From positions 1 to 64,000 of the forward strand of contig JAFDWZ010000004.1 in assembly GCA_018268195.1 (NCBI GenBank): a DNA stretch of 64,000 nt. Reading direction: 5' to 3'. The notes beneath the pieces were generated by a model. That model was not told where the DNA came from. It searched no databases and worked only from the letters and a program-made list of their open reading frames with translations. A program made the translations under genes and the position numbers. Shown here in pieces: positions 28,754-60,233 of the stretch; positions within the stretch are counted from its first letter, which is position 1, and the number at the start of each line of letters is the position of its first letter. The stretch is from Bacteroidota bacterium (GTDB taxonomy: Bacteria; Bacteroidota; Bacteroidia; AKYH767-A; OLB10).

Positions 28754-29509
28754 TCACACGATAAATGGAATTATAGCCTTTCTTTCGGCAGGATAATTTT
28801 TAAATTTCTCTTTATACCATCGGTGATGCGAAACAGCTCTGGGCACAAGGTTGCAGAATGTCCAGATAAAAAATGCTAATCCCGGCAGACTCCATGTAAG
28901 AATTGCAAAACCTCCCCACTCAATCATTTCGCCCATCAGGTTGGGGCAACTTACATAATGAAACCATCTGCCTTCGGGAATTTGATATCCCGTATCACCT
29001 TTTTTTCGAAGATTGATAAGAGTTGTATCCGACCACCAATTGATAATCATCCCAGCAAAAAAAATGATTGTGCCGGAGATAAAGGGCACACTTCTCATCC
29101 ATGCATCATCATAAATTTTGAAATTACCGAGATAGTAACCAATGATGAATCCGTTTACGAGATTAAAAAACATACCCATAAGCATGATAACTACCGGCAT
29201 TTTTTTTCCTTTAGTTCTTAATCTGAACGGGAAAACGATACTCCTGTTAAGATAGTGGAAAGCAAAAAAAGCAATGATAATCTGATTGACAAATGACTGT
29301 GGGTTTTTGCCGTTGAACACAAACCAAAAAAGCACTACCAACACAAATACTTCCATCACTATCCAGCCGGTTTTATTATCAACGAGTGGTCCCCAGGTTT
29401 GTTTGGTATGTCGGCCATACGGAGCCGTAATAAACATCAGCATGATAAAAACTGCAATGGCAAGAATAATCCAGCAATAAATAAACGTAGTGAAATTATC
29501 CGGGGTCAT
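28754..29509 (-). CDS. Steroid 5-alpha-reductase-like membrane oxidoreductase
   Basis: 251 residues with about six to seven membrane segments. The C-terminal half closely follows the human SRD5A pattern: YQIPEGRWFHYVSCPNLMGEMIEW, TWSLPGLAFFIWTFCNLVPRA, SHHRWYKEKFKNYP and ending RKAIIPFIV. The conserved Asn, Glu and paired His of the active site are present, and ME in GWIVMEVF matches the N-terminal Glu. These enzymes reduce a C=C bond conjugated to a ketone using NADPH. The bacterial substrate may be a sterol, a hopanoid-like or other lipid enone. It overlaps the upstream SDR gene by 4 bp. Confidence 0.88.
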   Translation of the reverse strand: MTPDNFTTFIYCWIILAIAVFIMLMFITAPYGRHTKQTWGPLVDNKTGWIVMEVFVLVVLFWFVFNGKNPQSFVNQIIIAFFAFHYLNRSIVFPFRLRTKGKKMPVVIMLMGMFFNLVNGFIIGYYLGNFKIYDDAWMRSVPFISGTIIFFAGMIINWWSDTTLINLRKKGDTGYQIPEGRWFHYVSCPNLMGEMIEWGGFAILTWSLPGLAFFIWTFCNLVPRAVSHHRWYKEKFKNYPAERKAIIPFIV

Positions 29510-30483
29510 ATTTTGCCTTTAGTTTTAAACCATTGAATTGTGTCGGCAAGTGATTCGCTTAAGTCGCGTGCTGTGTATCCCAGCTCGCGTTGCGCTTTAG
29601 CTGATGAAATAAATTTGTTGCCATCCATCAGAATGTCGAGATATGGTTTGTCGTAAAGAGGAGGTTTGCCTGTAATGTTTGCGTAAAGTCTGATTAAAGG
29701 GAGCACCATTCGTGCAACAGAAATTGGAATTACCGGAAGATGTTTTTGCGTTCCTTTTATACTCAGTACTATTTCCGAAAATTGTTTGAGCGTATAATAT
29801 TTTCCTCCGAGAATATAGGTTTGGCCTGATTGACCTTTACTTAAAGCTGATACCATACCATTGGCAATATCGCGCACATCAACAAAATCAAAACCTCCGG
29901 TGATTACAGCAGGAACATAACCTTTATAAATGTCAATAATCGCTTTCCCCAATTTGGAAGGTTTGAAATCGAATGGCCCCAGTACCGAAGTTGGACAAAC
30001 TGTTACTACATGAATGCCGTTGTGTGCTGCTGCCAATGCAGACAGATGACCATCGCGCTTGGAACGATCGTAATATAATGCTGAATCATTAACAAAATTA
30101 CGGCTCTCATCAAGAGTAGTGTTATGCGGAGATTGCGAAAAGGCATGAATACTGCTGACATGAACCATTTTTTTTATACCGGAATTAATAGCAATGTCCA
30201 GAACATTTTTGGTGCCTGTAACATTAATGTCGAAAACTTTCTGATTGAATTTATAGCTCAGGCTAATGGTGGCAGCAGTATGGATAACGGCATCACAGCC
30301 TGCCATTAATTCACTGAGCGAATCGCGGTTTAGAATATCGCCTTTTACTTTTTTCAGAGATAAATCTTCAATGGCAGAAATATCATTGCGCACCAAAGCA
30401 GCTACTTCATAACCCATTTCAATCAACTGGCGGCAGACCACAGCGCCTATATGTCCGGTAGCACCTGTAACAGCAACTTTCAT
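29506..30483 (-). CDS. NAD-dependent epimerase/dehydratase-type extended SDR
   Basis: 325 residues. The Rossmann motif VTGATGHIGAVV is at 5-16, VIHTAATISL near 66, the catalytic Ser in HVSSIHAF near 113 and YYDRSKRDG holding the YxxxK pair near 138. The pattern is close to dihydroflavonol reductase and 3-beta-hydroxysteroid dehydrogenase-like enzymes that oxidise or reduce a hydroxyl next to a ring. Its stop overlaps the ATG of the 5-alpha-reductase-like gene (ATGA), so both are coupled and may act on one substrate. Confidence 0.88.
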   Translation of the reverse strand: MKVAVTGATGHIGAVVCRQLIEMGYEVAALVRNDISAIEDLSLKKVKGDILNRDSLSELMAGCDAVIHTAATISLSYKFNQKVFDINVTGTKNVLDIAINSGIKKMVHVSSIHAFSQSPHNTTLDESRNFVNDSALYYDRSKRDGHLSALAAAHNGIHVVTVCPTSVLGPFDFKPSKLGKAIIDIYKGYVPAVITGGFDFVDVRDIANGMVSALSKGQSGQTYILGGKYYTLKQFSEIVLSIKGTQKHLPVIPISVARMVLPLIRLYANITGKPPLYDKPYLDILMDGNKFISSAKAQRELGYTARDLSESLADTIQWFKTKGKI

Positions 30484-30525: not shown

Positions 30526-30756
30526 TTAAATTTCTTTTACTGAAATAATTTTCACGGGGCAGGCTTTGGCTGCTTTCTCGCATGCTTCCAATGCTTGATG
30601 ATACTTGGTTTTCATGGTGTGGAATCCGCGCTTTTCGGTCGATTGAAGTAATACGGATTTGCCGTCTTTTTTCGACATTCTGAAATATTCAGGCGCAAAT
30701 TCTACACAATAGTTACAGCCAATACATTTATCGCGCTGAAATGTAACAACAATCAT
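30526..30756 (-). CDS. Single-cluster 4Fe-4S ferredoxin
   Basis: The 76 residues carry CIGCNYCVE (Cys11, 14, 17) and a late ACPVK (Cys66), the set for one 4Fe-4S cluster; an extra Cys59 in EACEKA could form a disulfide or replace a ligand. An insertion of ~40 residues separates the two halves. It starts exactly at the base after the stop codon of the U32 gene, so it is co-translated with it and may be its electron donor. Confidence 0.9.
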   Translation of the reverse strand: MIVVTFQRDKCIGCNYCVEFAPEYFRMSKKDGKSVLLQSTEKRGFHTMKTKYHQALEACEKAAKACPVKIISVKEI

Positions 30757-56146: not shown

Positions 56147-56246
56147 AAGAGTGATGCGGATAATCACGAAATATTGTTTTTAAGCCCTTAAAAACGAAAC
56201 TATTTTGCCTTATTTTCGTATTTTTCAGAACCACCACATTTTAACT

Positions 56247-59200
56247 ATGGCAGATAAATTTATTGCTGTTGATTACGACCCTTTTGCCCCGGCCACGCCT
56301 GTTGCTTTCCCTACTACTGAAGAGCAACGTGAGATATGGACTTCCATCATTATCGGAGGCGAAGCTTCTTCATTATCTTATAACGAAAGTATTACCCTTT
56401 ACCTTGACGGGAAATGTAAAATTGAGGCACTTTCTGAAGCCTGCAAAGCAGTAATTCAACGTCATGAAATATTACGAAGCACCTATGCCGCAGATGGAAA
56501 TTCTTATACCGTAAAAGAGAATGTAACCATTGACATTCCGGTAATAGACCTTACGAGCCTGCGCCCGGATGAGAAAAAAGGAAGAATAAAACATTTCTCG
56601 CAACGCGAGGTTGAAATTCCATTCAATCTTGCCGAGGGACCTGTCATCCGTTTTGCAATATTTAAAATTTCATCTGCAGAAACAGCTCTTATCGTTACTG
56701 CTCATCACATCGTTTGTGACGGGTGGAGTATAGGCATCATCTTACAGGAAATCAGCAAATTTTATTCAGCCTTTATCCAAAACACCACACCCGTAATGGA
56801 TACTGCGTTTTCTTTCAGCGAATATTCTGCAAGGCAACAGCAGCGAAAAGAGGATGGCTCTTATGAACGCTGCGAAAATTATTGGCTGAAGATGTATCAG
56901 GGTGATATACCTGTTTTGGATTTGCCCATTAACAAACCTCGCCCTTCAAGCCGTACCTTCAATGCCAAACGGATGGATATTGAAGTAGATGCTGCCTTGG
57001 TGGCTGATATTAAAAAATTCGGAGCAAAAAATAACAGCAGTTTTGTAAACACACTTTTTGCAGCCTTTGAAATTTATATTTACCGGTTAACCTCTCAGCG
57101 CGATGTGGTAGTGGGTCTTCCTGCAGCCGGACAGTCAGCATCTGAAATGTATGCTATGGTGGGGCACTGCGTAAACCTCCTTCCCGTACGTTCTGTTATC
57201 AATGAAAAAGTTACTTTTTCGGAATATCTGAAGTCGAGAAAAGCTACCATGCTCGATGTGTTCGAACATCAGGAATTTACCATGGGAAGTCTCCTCAGCA
57301 AACTGCCTTTGCAGCGTGACCCCTCAAGGATACCTTTGGTGCCGGCAGTCTTCAACGTAGACCTCGGTATCACTCAGGGAGTAGATTTTTCAGGACTTAC
57401 TTATCGTTTTGTATCCAACCCACGCAAGTACGAAAACTTTGAATTCTTTTTGAATGCCACCGGAATGGGCGACATTCTCATTCTGGAATGTTCATATAAC
57501 ACTGATTTGTTTGAGGATGAGATGATCAGGTTACGCATGGAAGAGTTTGTGATGTTGTTAAAAGATATCGTAGCTAATCCGTCATTATCCGTTGCCGAAC
57601 TCAACCTACTTACACGTGATGAGCAACAAAATATTTTTGTGGAGTGGTCAGGTAAGCAGGAGCAGTTTCCTGCCTACAACGGACTTCATCAGCTAATTGA
57701 AGAAATGGCAAAGCAACACCCTGAACAAACTGCATTGCTATATCAGGGTAGCAAAATGAGCTACGCCACTTTAAATGAGCAGTCAAACGCCCTTGCCGTA
57801 CATCTGCAGCAGTCAGGTGTGAAAAAAGATGTGCCGGTAGCCATTTATATGGAAAGGAGTCCCGAAATAATTGTTGCCATACTTGCCGTATTGAAAGCCG
57901 GTGGAGCTTATGTGCCTATTGATTTTTCATATCCGCAGGATCGTATTGCATATCTGTTACAGGATGCAGCATGTCCCGTGATTATCACTCAGGAAAAATA
58001 TAGAGATAATCTTCCCCTTAGCAATGCTGTTACTCTGCTGCGCGAAGAGTGGAATAATATTTTTGAAAAATATAAAAACCGCAAACCCGAACAACATACC
58101 CTGCCAACAGATTTATGTTATGTGATTTACACTTCAGGTTCTACAGGAAAACCTAAAGGAGTATTAATAGAACACCGCACGGCAATTCATTACATTTCGT
58201 ACTGCAACAAACATTATTTCGGAAATAAAAATTATGGCAACTTCGGGTTGTATAGTTCACTTTCATTCGACCTTACAGTGACCAGTATTTTCTGCACTCT
58301 TACCAGAGGTAAAACACTTACCATATTTAAGCAGGAAGAAGATGTAATTAATATTCTGAAACAAACTTTTCAGCCCGATTCAGCAATAGATGTGATTAAG
58401 ATGACTCCGGCACACATTTTAGCTCTTGAAACGTTGTCGTTAAAATCTAATAACATCTGCAAAGCTATTGTAGGAGGAGAAGAACTGCTTCCAAAACATG
58501 TGGAGATTCTTCGCAATATTAACCCTGAGATGGAAATCATCAACGAATACGGCCCTACAGAAGCTACAGTAGGTTGTATTGTTAAAGATGTGAAAATACC
58601 TTCCGATGCATCAACCATAGGGAAAGCTATTTCAAATACGCAGGCTTATATTTTCGATTTCAACATGCAACCGGTACCTCCGGGTGTTCAGGGTAAGTTG
58701 TTTATTGGCGGTGATGGGCTTGCCAGAGGTTATAAAAACAGAGATGAGTTGACAAATGAGAAATTTGTATCTGAAAAATATACTGGTGCAAATCTGCGTG
58801 TTTATGATACAGGCGATTTGGCTCGTTTCCGTTATGATGGAGATATGGAATTTCTGGGAAGGATAGATAATCAGGTAAAAATCCGCGGATACAGAATTGA
58901 AATAGGTGAAATAGAAAATGTGATATCATCAATCAGGGAAGTAAAGGAAGTAACAGTAATCGTTCGTGAAGATAATCCTAATGATAAAAGACTGGTAGCT
59001 TATGTAGTGCCCGAAAAGAATGTTACATTAGAAATTTCAGATTTAAAAGAAAGACTTAAATCAGCATTACCTGATTATATGATACCTTCTGCTTTTGTGT
59101 TGATGGAAAAAATACCACTCACCGCAAATGGTAAGATTGACAGAAAAGCACTGCCTGTACCTGAAGTGAATACAAAGTCAGAGAGCGCGAATTTTGAAGA

Positions 59201-60233
59201 ACCTCACAATCCGCTTGAAAGTTTGCTTGCCGGTATCTGGAGCGATATTCTCAAACAAGATAAAATAGGAATTCACGATAACTTCTTTGAGTTAGGTGGT
59301 CATTCGCTGCTTGGAATAAAAATGATGGGAGAAATTGAGCAAAAAACAGGAGTGAAGTTGGATTATCCAACGCTGTTTCGCGCCTCCACAATTTCGCAAC
59401 TTGCTAAAGTCATCAATGCGGAAGACCTGAATATGGAGTGGCCGATAGTAGTGCCATTACAGCAGGGCAGTAATAAAACTCCGTTGTTTCTGGTGCACAT
59501 GCATAATGGAAACATTCAACGATGGAGAGTATTGTTGAAATATCTTGATAAAAACCAACCTGTTTATGCCATACAGCCACGAGGACTGGATGAGAAATAC
59601 GACTATCATTATTCCATCCCCGATATGGCTAAATTTTACCTGAGCGAAATCAAAAAAATACAACCCTCAGGCCCATATCGTCTGGGTGGATTATGTTTTG
59701 GAGGCACTGTAGCTGTTGAAATGGCTAGACAACTGAATGAAATGGGCGAAAAGGTAGAGTTGGTGTTTATGATTAATAATTATGCACCGCCTTCCAATCC
59801 TATGCAATATAAAATACGTGAAACCTGGGATGAGTTTAAAGAAATGAACATGGAAGCTAAATTGGAATTTGCATTGGAGAAAACTAAAAATGCAGGTAAA
59901 AAAGTTCTGAGTAAACTAACCCGTGTGTTTGATTCATCTAAAGAAAATGAGCAGGAAGAAAACGTGAAAACCAAACCCGATATCAGATGGGTACACTCCG
60001 TTGCACTGTTGCATTATCAACCTGAAACTTCTTACAACGGTGATGTGGTTTTGGTAAAAACAGGTGATGAAGTAGCTAAACATTATGATGAAACATTGGG
60101 GTGGAAGCGATTGATTAGCGGAAACATAGAGATGCATATTGTTCCTGAAAGTGACAACGATTCCATCATCACTACAGAGAAATATTATCATCAGCTTGGC
60201 GCATTGCTGAACGAAAAGCTGAGCGCACTTTAA
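56247..60233 (+). CDS. Single-module nonribosomal peptide synthetase (C-A-T-TE)
   Basis: From ATG 56247 the protein has 1328 residues. The condensation domain (~20-470) carries HHIVCDGWS with both catalytic His at 153-154. The adenylation domain (~480-985) has LKAGGAYVPID, the loop YTSGSTGKPKG, EYGPTEATVG, YDTGDLAR and NGKIDRK. Pocket residues D675, L676, T679, K718, I741, G743, E767, V775, G776, K963 read DLTKIGEVGK, close to the asparagine code. The carrier domain has FFELGGHSL with Ser1020. The C-terminal thioesterase (~1075-1328) has GGLCFGG with Cys1150 in place of Ser, Asn1177 where Asp is expected and Asn1304 where His is expected. A phosphopantetheinyl transferase gene starts 2 bp after its stop. 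The product is unknown. Confidence 0.95.
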   Translation: MADKFIAVDYDPFAPATPVAFPTTEEQREIWTSIIIGGEASSLSYNESITLYLDGKCKIEALSEACKAVIQRHEILRSTYAADGNSYTVKENVTIDIPVIDLTSLRPDEKKGRIKHFSQREVEIPFNLAEGPVIRFAIFKISSAETALIVTAHHIVCDGWSIGIILQEISKFYSAFIQNTTPVMDTAFSFSEYSARQQQRKEDGSYERCENYWLKMYQGDIPVLDLPINKPRPSSRTFNAKRMDIEVDAALVADIKKFGAKNNSSFVNTLFAAFEIYIYRLTSQRDVVVGLPAAGQSASEMYAMVGHCVNLLPVRSVINEKVTFSEYLKSRKATMLDVFEHQEFTMGSLLSKLPLQRDPSRIPLVPAVFNVDLGITQGVDFSGLTYRFVSNPRKYENFEFFLNATGMGDILILECSYNTDLFEDEMIRLRMEEFVMLLKDIVANPSLSVAELNLLTRDEQQNIFVEWSGKQEQFPAYNGLHQLIEEMAKQHPEQTALLYQGSKMSYATLNEQSNALAVHLQQSGVKKDVPVAIYMERSPEIIVAILAVLKAGGAYVPIDFSYPQDRIAYLLQDAACPVIITQEKYRDNLPLSNAVTLLREEWNNIFEKYKNRKPEQHTLPTDLCYVIYTSGSTGKPKGVLIEHRTAIHYISYCNKHYFGNKNYGNFGLYSSLSFDLTVTSIFCTLTRGKTLTIFKQEEDVINILKQTFQPDSAIDVIKMTPAHILALETLSLKSNNICKAIVGGEELLPKHVEILRNINPEMEIINEYGPTEATVGCIVKDVKIPSDASTIGKAISNTQAYIFDFNMQPVPPGVQGKLFIGGDGLARGYKNRDELTNEKFVSEKYTGANLRVYDTGDLARFRYDGDMEFLGRIDNQVKIRGYRIEIGEIENVISSIREVKEVTVIVREDNPNDKRLVAYVVPEKNVTLEISDLKERLKSALPDYMIPSAFVLMEKIPLTANGKIDRKALPVPEVNTKSESANFEEPHNPLESLLAGIWSDILKQDKIGIHDNFFELGGHSLLGIKMMGEIEQKTGVKLDYPTLFRASTISQLAKVINAEDLNMEWPIVVPLQQGSNKTPLFLVHMHNGNIQRWRVLLKYLDKNQPVYAIQPRGLDEKYDYHYSIPDMAKFYLSEIKKIQPSGPYRLGGLCFGGTVAVEMARQLNEMGEKVELVFMINNYAPPSNPMQYKIRETWDEFKEMNMEAKLEFALEKTKNAGKKVLSKLTRVFDSSKENEQEENVKTKPDIRWVHSVALLHYQPETSYNGDVVLVKTGDEVAKHYDETLGWKRLISGNIEMHIVPESDNDSIITTEKYYHQLGALLNEKLSAL

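Follow-up and report, generated by a model that had tools for sequence, protein, structure and literature searches.

A conserved gene pair of an extended short-chain dehydrogenase and an SRD5A-like membrane reductase in Bacteroidota, possibly a sterol-saturating module

We analysed a stretch of 64,000 nucleotides (positions 1-64000 of contig JAFDWZ010000004.1, called the window throughout) from a Bacteroidota genome of 3.0 Mb, focusing on two overlapping genes that encode an extended short-chain dehydrogenase/reductase (SDR) and an integral membrane reductase related to steroid 5-alpha-reductases (SRD5A). The same order and strand of the two genes recur over many Bacteroidota, and the arrangement is beyond chance. 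Because the two genes adjoin in many distantly related members of the phylum, the pair looks like a small module for the saturation of sterol-like lipids. We lean slightly towards a conserved two-gene redox module that saturates sterols, in which the SDR would act on the 3-hydroxyl/3-keto group and the SRD5A-like enzyme would reduce the delta-4 double bond, possibly turning stenols into 5-alpha-stanols. For this module we infer the order of the reactions, the steroid nature of the substrate and an isomerisation step.

The two open reading frames (ORFs) and their 4-bp overlap had been noticed in a sequence-only reading of the window and were recovered on the minus strand at the positions it gave, the overlap being ATGA (Table 1). 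Of the 62 paired named loci described below, 14 likewise show a -4 overlap of SDR and reductase. Three motifs singled out in the same reading are present in the reductase as SHHRWY (residues 227-232), RKAIIPFIV (243-251) and PNLMGEMIEW (189-198), and the two enzyme classes it had proposed, an SRD5A-like membrane enzyme and an SDR resembling 3-beta-hydroxysteroid dehydrogenase (3-beta-HSD), were borne out by matches to PF02544, PF01370 and PF01073.

By profile, the reductase is a member of PF02544 (Steroid_dh; 183.3 bits, E-value 3.6e-54, cut-off 22.6). Profile scores against solved structures were 215.9 bits for PbSRD5A (7c83), 155.7 bits for human SRD5A2 (7bw1) and 50.7 bits for very-long-chain enoyl-CoA reductase. 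An AlphaFold model (mean pLDDT 91.1), computed from an alignment of 33 sequences, superimposed on 7c83 with a TM-score of 0.92 (Z 32.7) and on 7bw1 with a TM-score of 0.84 (Z 27.9), i.e. it has the SRD5A membrane fold; other fold matches were sterol delta-14 reductase (Z 12.0) and isoprenylcysteine methyltransferase (ICMT, Z 9.5-11.3). Site residues were mapped from passages of PMC7815742 and PMC7591894, and at these positions the active site is largely intact. The catalytic pair E53 and Y86 (E57 and Y91 of SRD5A2) is kept in all 153 bacterial rows of the alignment besides PbSRD5A, among them 128 of 128 rows on the paired side of the tree. The NADPH-binding set N160, D164, R171, N193, E197, R227, H231 and Y235 of SRD5A2, used as reference, is matched identically by N157, D161, R168, N190, E194, R224, H228 and Y232. 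It is barely credible that the membrane protein is instead an enoyl-CoA reductase or an isoprenylcysteine or phospholipid methyltransferase of similar fold: the distant ICMT matches and the weak likeness to very-long-chain enoyl-CoA reductase speak for it, but the SRD5A structures are far ahead (Z 32.7 and 27.9 versus at most 12.0) and both the Glu/Tyr pair and the eight listed NADPH residues are retained. The choice of SRD5A over these families, on which the sequence-only reading depended, thus held; it was decided by sequence and structure search, as the tree contained neither family.

The window SDR has the hallmarks of an extended SDR, i.e. a TGxxGxxG motif together with the Ser and Tyr-x3-Lys residues. 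It scored higher with PF01370 (Epimerase, 117.9 bits) than with PF01073 (3Beta_HSD, 74.9 bits, above the cut-off of 22), and its model (pLDDT 95.2) shows the extended-SDR fold with gox2253 (3wj7) as top structural match (Z 36.8; 226.1 bits by profile). Across 91 paired SDRs, T6, G7, G10, Y138 and K142 are invariant (91/91), S110 is present in 89/91 and G13 in 88/91. The nearest named families over the full length are HpnA (TIGR03466, 230.9 bits) and SdmB (NF052578, 199.7 bits). Both models were matched by all 27 SDRs scanned, the window's included, and the window SDR, lying below their curated cut-offs (367.65 and 600, respectively), is a member of neither family. SDRs of the SdmB type work at C-3 of sterols: a Calothrix SdmB homologue expressed alone yielded lanosterone, and SdmC was proposed to reduce the C-3 ketone (passages of PMC10202945); no Rieske oxygenase (SdmA) was found among the scanned immediate neighbours in the window. 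If the SDR were an HpnA-like sugar-nucleotide epimerase, the pairing could stem from glycolipid assembly, with the reductase saturating the lipid carrier. The top NCBIfam match is indeed HpnA, named 'hopanoid-associated sugar epimerase', and the fold matches are rich in UDP-sugar epimerases, but this fold is general to extended SDRs, the score falls short of the cut-off of a model that NCBIfam itself grades only as a hypothetical equivalog, and the closest solved relative, gox2253, was deposited as a putative oxidoreductase. We consider such an epimerase highly improbable.

A locus was counted as paired when an SDR of at least 150 bits lay upstream of the reductase on the same strand. The locus sets overlap in part and are biased to close relatives of the window protein, and loci were taken only for the best of 53 class-sample matches. 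Among the named loci, 62 of 79 were paired (80 were fetched; L134, which yielded no reductase ORF, was omitted from the counts yet kept in the tree), with the SDR at no more than 400 nt in 61 and no more than 100 nt in 59 (31 nt in L097). The loci of relatives and of the class sample, window included, were paired in 23 of 31 cases, once at a distance of 968 nt, and some unpaired class-sample loci (L041, L046) end within about 200 nt. The Bacteroidales sample gave 18 of 30. The pair is carried by, among others, Chitinophaga, Lutimonas and Fluviicola. A larger gene cluster was considered and rejected: in an all-against-all clustering of the neighbours in the named loci the SDR was the sole general partner, no further family reaching more than 8 loci, which appear to come from close relatives. 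An open-licence literature search by title and start of abstract returned no paper describing the pair, although one may still be published.

Some records deserve a comment. The pair neighbourhood of L120 (CP034120.1, 'Glaciecola amylolytica') is syntenic with that of Fluviicola loci L098, L123 and L130, with which its reductase groups, and L084 (labelled Competibacteraceae) shares its neighbourhood with Fluviicola/Flavobacteriales loci; because of these matches we treat both labels as wrong or mis-binned, and the CP034120.1 chromosome record is probably mislabelled. L111/G758, which carries a KSB1 label, has the pair as well; a wide spread outside Bacteroidota may exist, but we do not claim it. 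Three Bacteroidales relatives (L067, L070, L074) have genes of an acyl-carrier context upstream of the pair, the acyltransferase and phosphopantetheinyl-transferase being Pfam-checked in L070. A common transporter family occurs near the pair in L117, L112, L132 and L133, and directly downstream of the pair in L117 (6827-9088) lies an MMPL protein that also exceeds the cut-off of the sterol-sensing domain model.

Co-occurrence was determined for 80 genomes of the class, 44 with and 36 without the reductase. An SDR of at least 228 bits was present in 28 of the former and 0 of the latter (Fisher p 1.4e-10). The 228-bit line was drawn post hoc in the score gap from 228.7 down to 188.8 bits, and the 36 negative genomes were chosen by spacing, i.e. 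non-randomly, and come mostly from families other than those of the positives. The value of 188.8 bits is the best SDR of any reductase-negative genome, G533 and G585 reaching 184-189 bits. Within the six families that contain both kinds, such SDRs were found in 11 of 17 reductase-positive and 0 of 7 negative genomes, and in four reductase-lacking genomes of the window's own family the best SDR match was at most 71.3 bits. In two genomes with unpaired loci (G523, G677) the SDR gene shares the contig of the reductase gene at a distance of 10-15 kb. The distance matrices of SDR and reductase correlate with r 0.79 over 80 pairs, a value reached in 0 of 1000 permutations, and shared ancestry alone would also be expected to produce such a correlation. 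Conservation of the pairing in relatives, on which the sequence-only reading had staked its claim, is therefore seen both across named loci (62/79) and across genomes (28/44 versus 0/36).

In a tree of 155 reductases (quick IQ-TREE search; branch support by the SH-like approximate likelihood ratio test, SH-aLRT, only), 89 paired and 39 unpaired proteins are separated by a branch with an SH-aLRT of 96 from SRD5A2, PbSRD5A and a gut-type clade of 20 members (SH-aLRT 100). Gut-type here denotes unnamed, mostly small-genome Bacteroidales clustering with Phocaeicola massiliensis (L232); L181 and L182 fall outside the clade. In the tree the window reductase is placed next to those of OLB10, WAS_Bin_1 and metagenome-assembled genomes (MAGs) of Chitinophagaceae and Saprospiraceae, and its placement assigns it to an environmental rather than the gut-type lineage. 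In 18 of 20 gut-type loci the gene of an old yellow enzyme (OYE, PF00724) adjoins that of the reductase or is no more than about 0.5 kb from it, further partners often being one or two classical SDRs (PF00106); an extended SDR was found in 0 of 20. The arrangement of the gut 5-alpha-reductase cluster, with OYE and classical SDRs, is not seen around the window reductase, whose neighbours are carB, the extended SDR, a ferredoxin and a U32-family gene. The kinship with SRD5A envisaged in the sequence-only reading thus stood. Because the gut-type enzymes, with which it had suggested a comparison, form a separate clade with different partners, we treat the gut bile-acid pathway as an analogy and not as the same system. 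In the gut-type loci (L185-L204, L232) the reductase is accompanied by an OYE of ~410 aa and by no more than two classical SDRs; in Phocaeicola massiliensis (L232), a named example with the OYE, the cluster is on a record labelled plasmid.

A link to sterols was sought through triterpene cyclases, for which 11 of 395 class-sample genomes had matches over the cut-off (nine strong, G741 with 56 bits at a contig end and G694 with a partial match of 37 bits); matches below the cut-off in G042 and G539 (reductase present) and in G495 (reductase absent) were left uncounted. The reductase is present in 10 of the 11 cyclase genomes (all except G694) versus 43 of 384 others (Fisher p 8.5e-9, or 8.6e-10 with G694 counted as cyclase-negative). 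One of the ten, G550, has the reductase without an adjacent SDR and no SDR above 94 bits in the genome. Eight cyclase loci were opened; the oxidosqualene cyclase (OSC) motif DCTAE was found by pattern in 3 and the hopene-cyclase motif DxDDT in 0, and in several of the loci neighbouring genes encode squalene synthase and squalene epoxidase (Pfam-confirmed in L214, by eye in others). The genus Fluviicola has both a cyclase and the pair (L098/G759). The cyclase loci L214-L221, mostly from one family, add to the few OSC-bearing Bacteroidetes described in passages of PMC4919349.

Several observations weigh against sterol saturation by this pair. Seventeen of the 79 named loci have no adjacent SDR (one, L104, ends at a contig edge and is uninformative), 16 of the 44 reductase-positive genomes lack an SDR of at least 228 bits, and a search for a pair-class SDR elsewhere in the genome found none in all 7 other unpaired genomes searched. 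The cyclase association does not represent ten independent events because 9 of the 10 reductase-positive cyclase genomes belong to a single family, 15 of whose 16 genomes carry the reductase; it is absent from G1063, a cyclase-positive member of this family that is 77% complete. No triterpene-cyclase match was obtained in the window's genus (G000, G001, G002, G003), and sterol synthesis by the window organism itself was rejected on this ground. Fluviicola taffensis reportedly makes only cycloartenol and has no genes downstream of osc (passages of PMC4919349), and cycloartenol as such would not be a substrate since its 4,4-dimethyl ring cannot bear a delta-4 enone. In the reductase, Y193, a further NADPH contact of PbSRD5A, is L191, and the Gln of the QEY signature (Q56 of SRD5A2) is M52, so that one residue of this steroid-binding signature differs; the exchanges Q56A/L in human SRD5A2 led to loss of activity (passages of PMC7815742). 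Because of M52 we file the protein as a PF02544 homologue predicted to work like SRD5A and not as a proven steroid 5-alpha-reductase. Among the 155 aligned proteins Gln occurs at this position only in PbSRD5A and SRD5A2, Met being present in 128 of 128 paired-side, 20 of 20 gut-type and 5 of 5 other rows. The idea that the Gln to Met exchange marks a clade inactive on steroids was weakened, as the gut-type clade has Met too and gut taxa are reportedly active, the gut-type proteins being presumably those behind the reported gut 5-alpha-reductase activity.

In the sterol-saturating module that we favour, the soluble SDR would convert a hydroxyl on a ring into a ketone and back, most likely the 3-beta-hydroxyl of a sterol, and a delta-5 to delta-4 shift, if there is one, would be brought about by the SDR or occur spontaneously. 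The delta-4 enone would then be reduced by the SRD5A-like enzyme with a hydride taken from NADPH, its carbonyl being polarised by Glu53 and Tyr86, and the SDR could act once more to return the saturated ketone to the alcohol. The net result of these three steps (oxidise, reduce, reduce) would be the conversion of an unsaturated 3-hydroxy-sterol into a saturated lipid of the 5-alpha-stanol type. As no cyclase was detected in its genome, the window organism would need to take up its substrate, e.g. algal, plant, animal or faecal sterols. If the pair acts on sterols at all, acquired, C-4-demethylated ones are more likely, given that the window's genus has no cyclase match and that the cycloartenol of F. 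taffensis cannot form a delta-4 enone. A more specific proposal, which we put forward as tentative and rather doubtful, is that the pair is the gene set for the environmental conversion of stenols to 5-alpha-stanols, acting on scavenged sterols and perhaps on own sterols in cyclase-bearing relatives. This module of environmental Bacteroidota would follow a logic like that of the eukaryotic dolichol detour and be distinct from the gut bile-acid route.

Polyprenol-type isoprenoids are a real rival to a sterol substrate. Here the SDR would turn an allylic prenol into its enal, the alpha double bond would be saturated by the SRD5A-like enzyme and the SDR would reduce the aldehyde, yielding an alpha-saturated polyprenol or another reduced isoprenoid lipid, much as DHRSX and SRD5A3 combine an SDR and an SRD5A enzyme in the three-step dolichol detour (PMC13229312, PMC11607601). 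Enzymes of these two types are a known combination for saturating a double bond adjacent to an alcohol. The surroundings of some pairs fit such a role: likely glycosyltransferase genes, named by eye, follow the pair in L062, L077, L084 and L092, L084 also has a nucleotidyltransferase gene upstream, and in L133 a UbiA-type prenyltransferase gene is found downstream. Most sampled carriers, the window genome included, are also without a triterpene-cyclase match. The reductase, however, lies near SRD5A1/2-type proteins among solved structures, and it is sparse: in the window's family its 3 carriers among 24 genomes all fall into one genus, whose fourth genome lacks it, and in the class sample it occurs in 53 of 395 genomes; because of this sparse distribution a housekeeping polyprenol step looks odd, and we rate the isoprenoid route as unlikely, though to be taken seriously.

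In another reading, the pair would not form stanols but reduce dissolved steroid hormones or bile acids of sewage for catabolism or detoxification, resembling the gut route on 3-oxo-delta-4-lithocholic acid. OLB10 and WAS_Bin_1, the closest named relatives, are MAGs that, judging by their names, we take to come from waste treatment, and the substrate preferred by PbSRD5A is progesterone (passages of PMC7815742). The separate clade of the gut-type reductases, with an OYE in 18 of 20 loci and an extended SDR in 0 of 20, counts against this, as do the carriers Chitinophaga, Lutimonas and Fluviicola, which are not known as sewage specialists. We consider it improbable.

The genes flanking the pair that were scanned are ordinary. 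Read along the minus strand, a U32-family gene is followed by the genes of the ferredoxin, the SDR and the SRD5A-like reductase and then by carB, and the ferredoxin gene starts straight after the stop of the U32-family gene. The ferredoxin is syntenic beside the pair in two genomes of the same genus that carry the pair. As a third component it was not adopted, no recurring ferredoxin family being found in the named loci, where ORFs of less than 90 aa were not called; since a recurrent partnership is absent outside the window's genus, the ferredoxin is probably only a neighbour. Elsewhere in the window, a single-module nonribosomal peptide synthetase of 1342 aa (56205-60233, plus strand; condensation, adenylation, carrier and thioesterase domains) is encoded, in a genome of 3 Mb. 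No RNA genes were found in the window with Rfam at gathering thresholds or ARAGORN.

Table 1. Positions in the window of the gene pair, its overlap and the adjacent ferredoxin gene.
Feature	Position	Strand	Description
SRD5A-like integral membrane reductase (PF02544)	28754..29509	-	251 aa, ATG start; E53, Y86 and eight SRD5A2-listed NADPH residues kept; M52 replaces Q
Extended SDR (HpnA/SdmB/3-beta-HSD-like)	29506..30483	-	325 aa, ATG start; TGATGHIG nucleotide motif, S110, Y138, K142
ATGA overlap of reductase start and SDR stop	29506..29509	-	four bases; translational-coupling geometry
Small single-cluster ferredoxin	30526..30756	-	76 aa; 42 nt upstream of SDR

Environmental conversion of stenols to 5-alpha-stanols has been inferred from sediments and soils for decades, and Gaskell and Eglinton reportedly described sterol hydrogenation in a lake sediment in 1975. 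The 5-alpha-stanols that environmental microbes form from sterols serve as reference in ratios used for faecal pollution and in archaeology (passages of PMC5217961), and these passages name no gene for the step from sterol to 5-alpha-stanol. Culturable carriers of the pair (Chitinophaga, Fluviicola) would open the question of the stanol genes to expression and deletion tests. If our reading is true, an environmental 5-alpha-reductase-like lineage, given a conserved genomic partner, would stand separated from the gut-type lineage.

The pair can be compared with several known systems. Plants use a 3-beta-HSD and a steroid 5-alpha-reductase to convert delta-5 sterols into saturated sterols of the cholestanol type; the logic of an SDR combined with a 5-alpha-reductase is the same, but these are plant enzymes, likened here by their chemistry. 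DHRSX and SRD5A3 share with the pair the use of one SDR and one SRD5A-type reductase in turn, but are eukaryotic, act on polyprenol and are likened by the chemistry described for them. SdmB/SdmC and HpnA represent the closest named SDR families over the full length of the window SDR, which, unlike SdmB/SdmC, is partnered with an SRD5A-like reductase. PbSRD5A (7c83) and SRD5A2 (7bw1) are homologous to the window reductase over nearly the full length (38% and 34% identity, respectively, over the structural alignment) and share with it the fold, the Glu/Tyr pair of the active site and the eight NADPH residues listed for SRD5A2, but they have the Gln of QEY, PbSRD5A has Y193, and both lie across the branch with an SH-aLRT of 96. 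In gut Bacteroidales, a 5-alpha-reductase gene is reportedly clustered with genes for a 5-beta-reductase and 3-beta-hydroxysteroid dehydrogenases (Sato et al., 2021). These clusters differ from the pair in their own reductase clade and in having an OYE and classical SDRs instead of the extended SDR, and resemble it in that an SRD5A-family reductase, likewise with Met in place of Gln, adjoins dehydrogenase genes in Bacteroidota.

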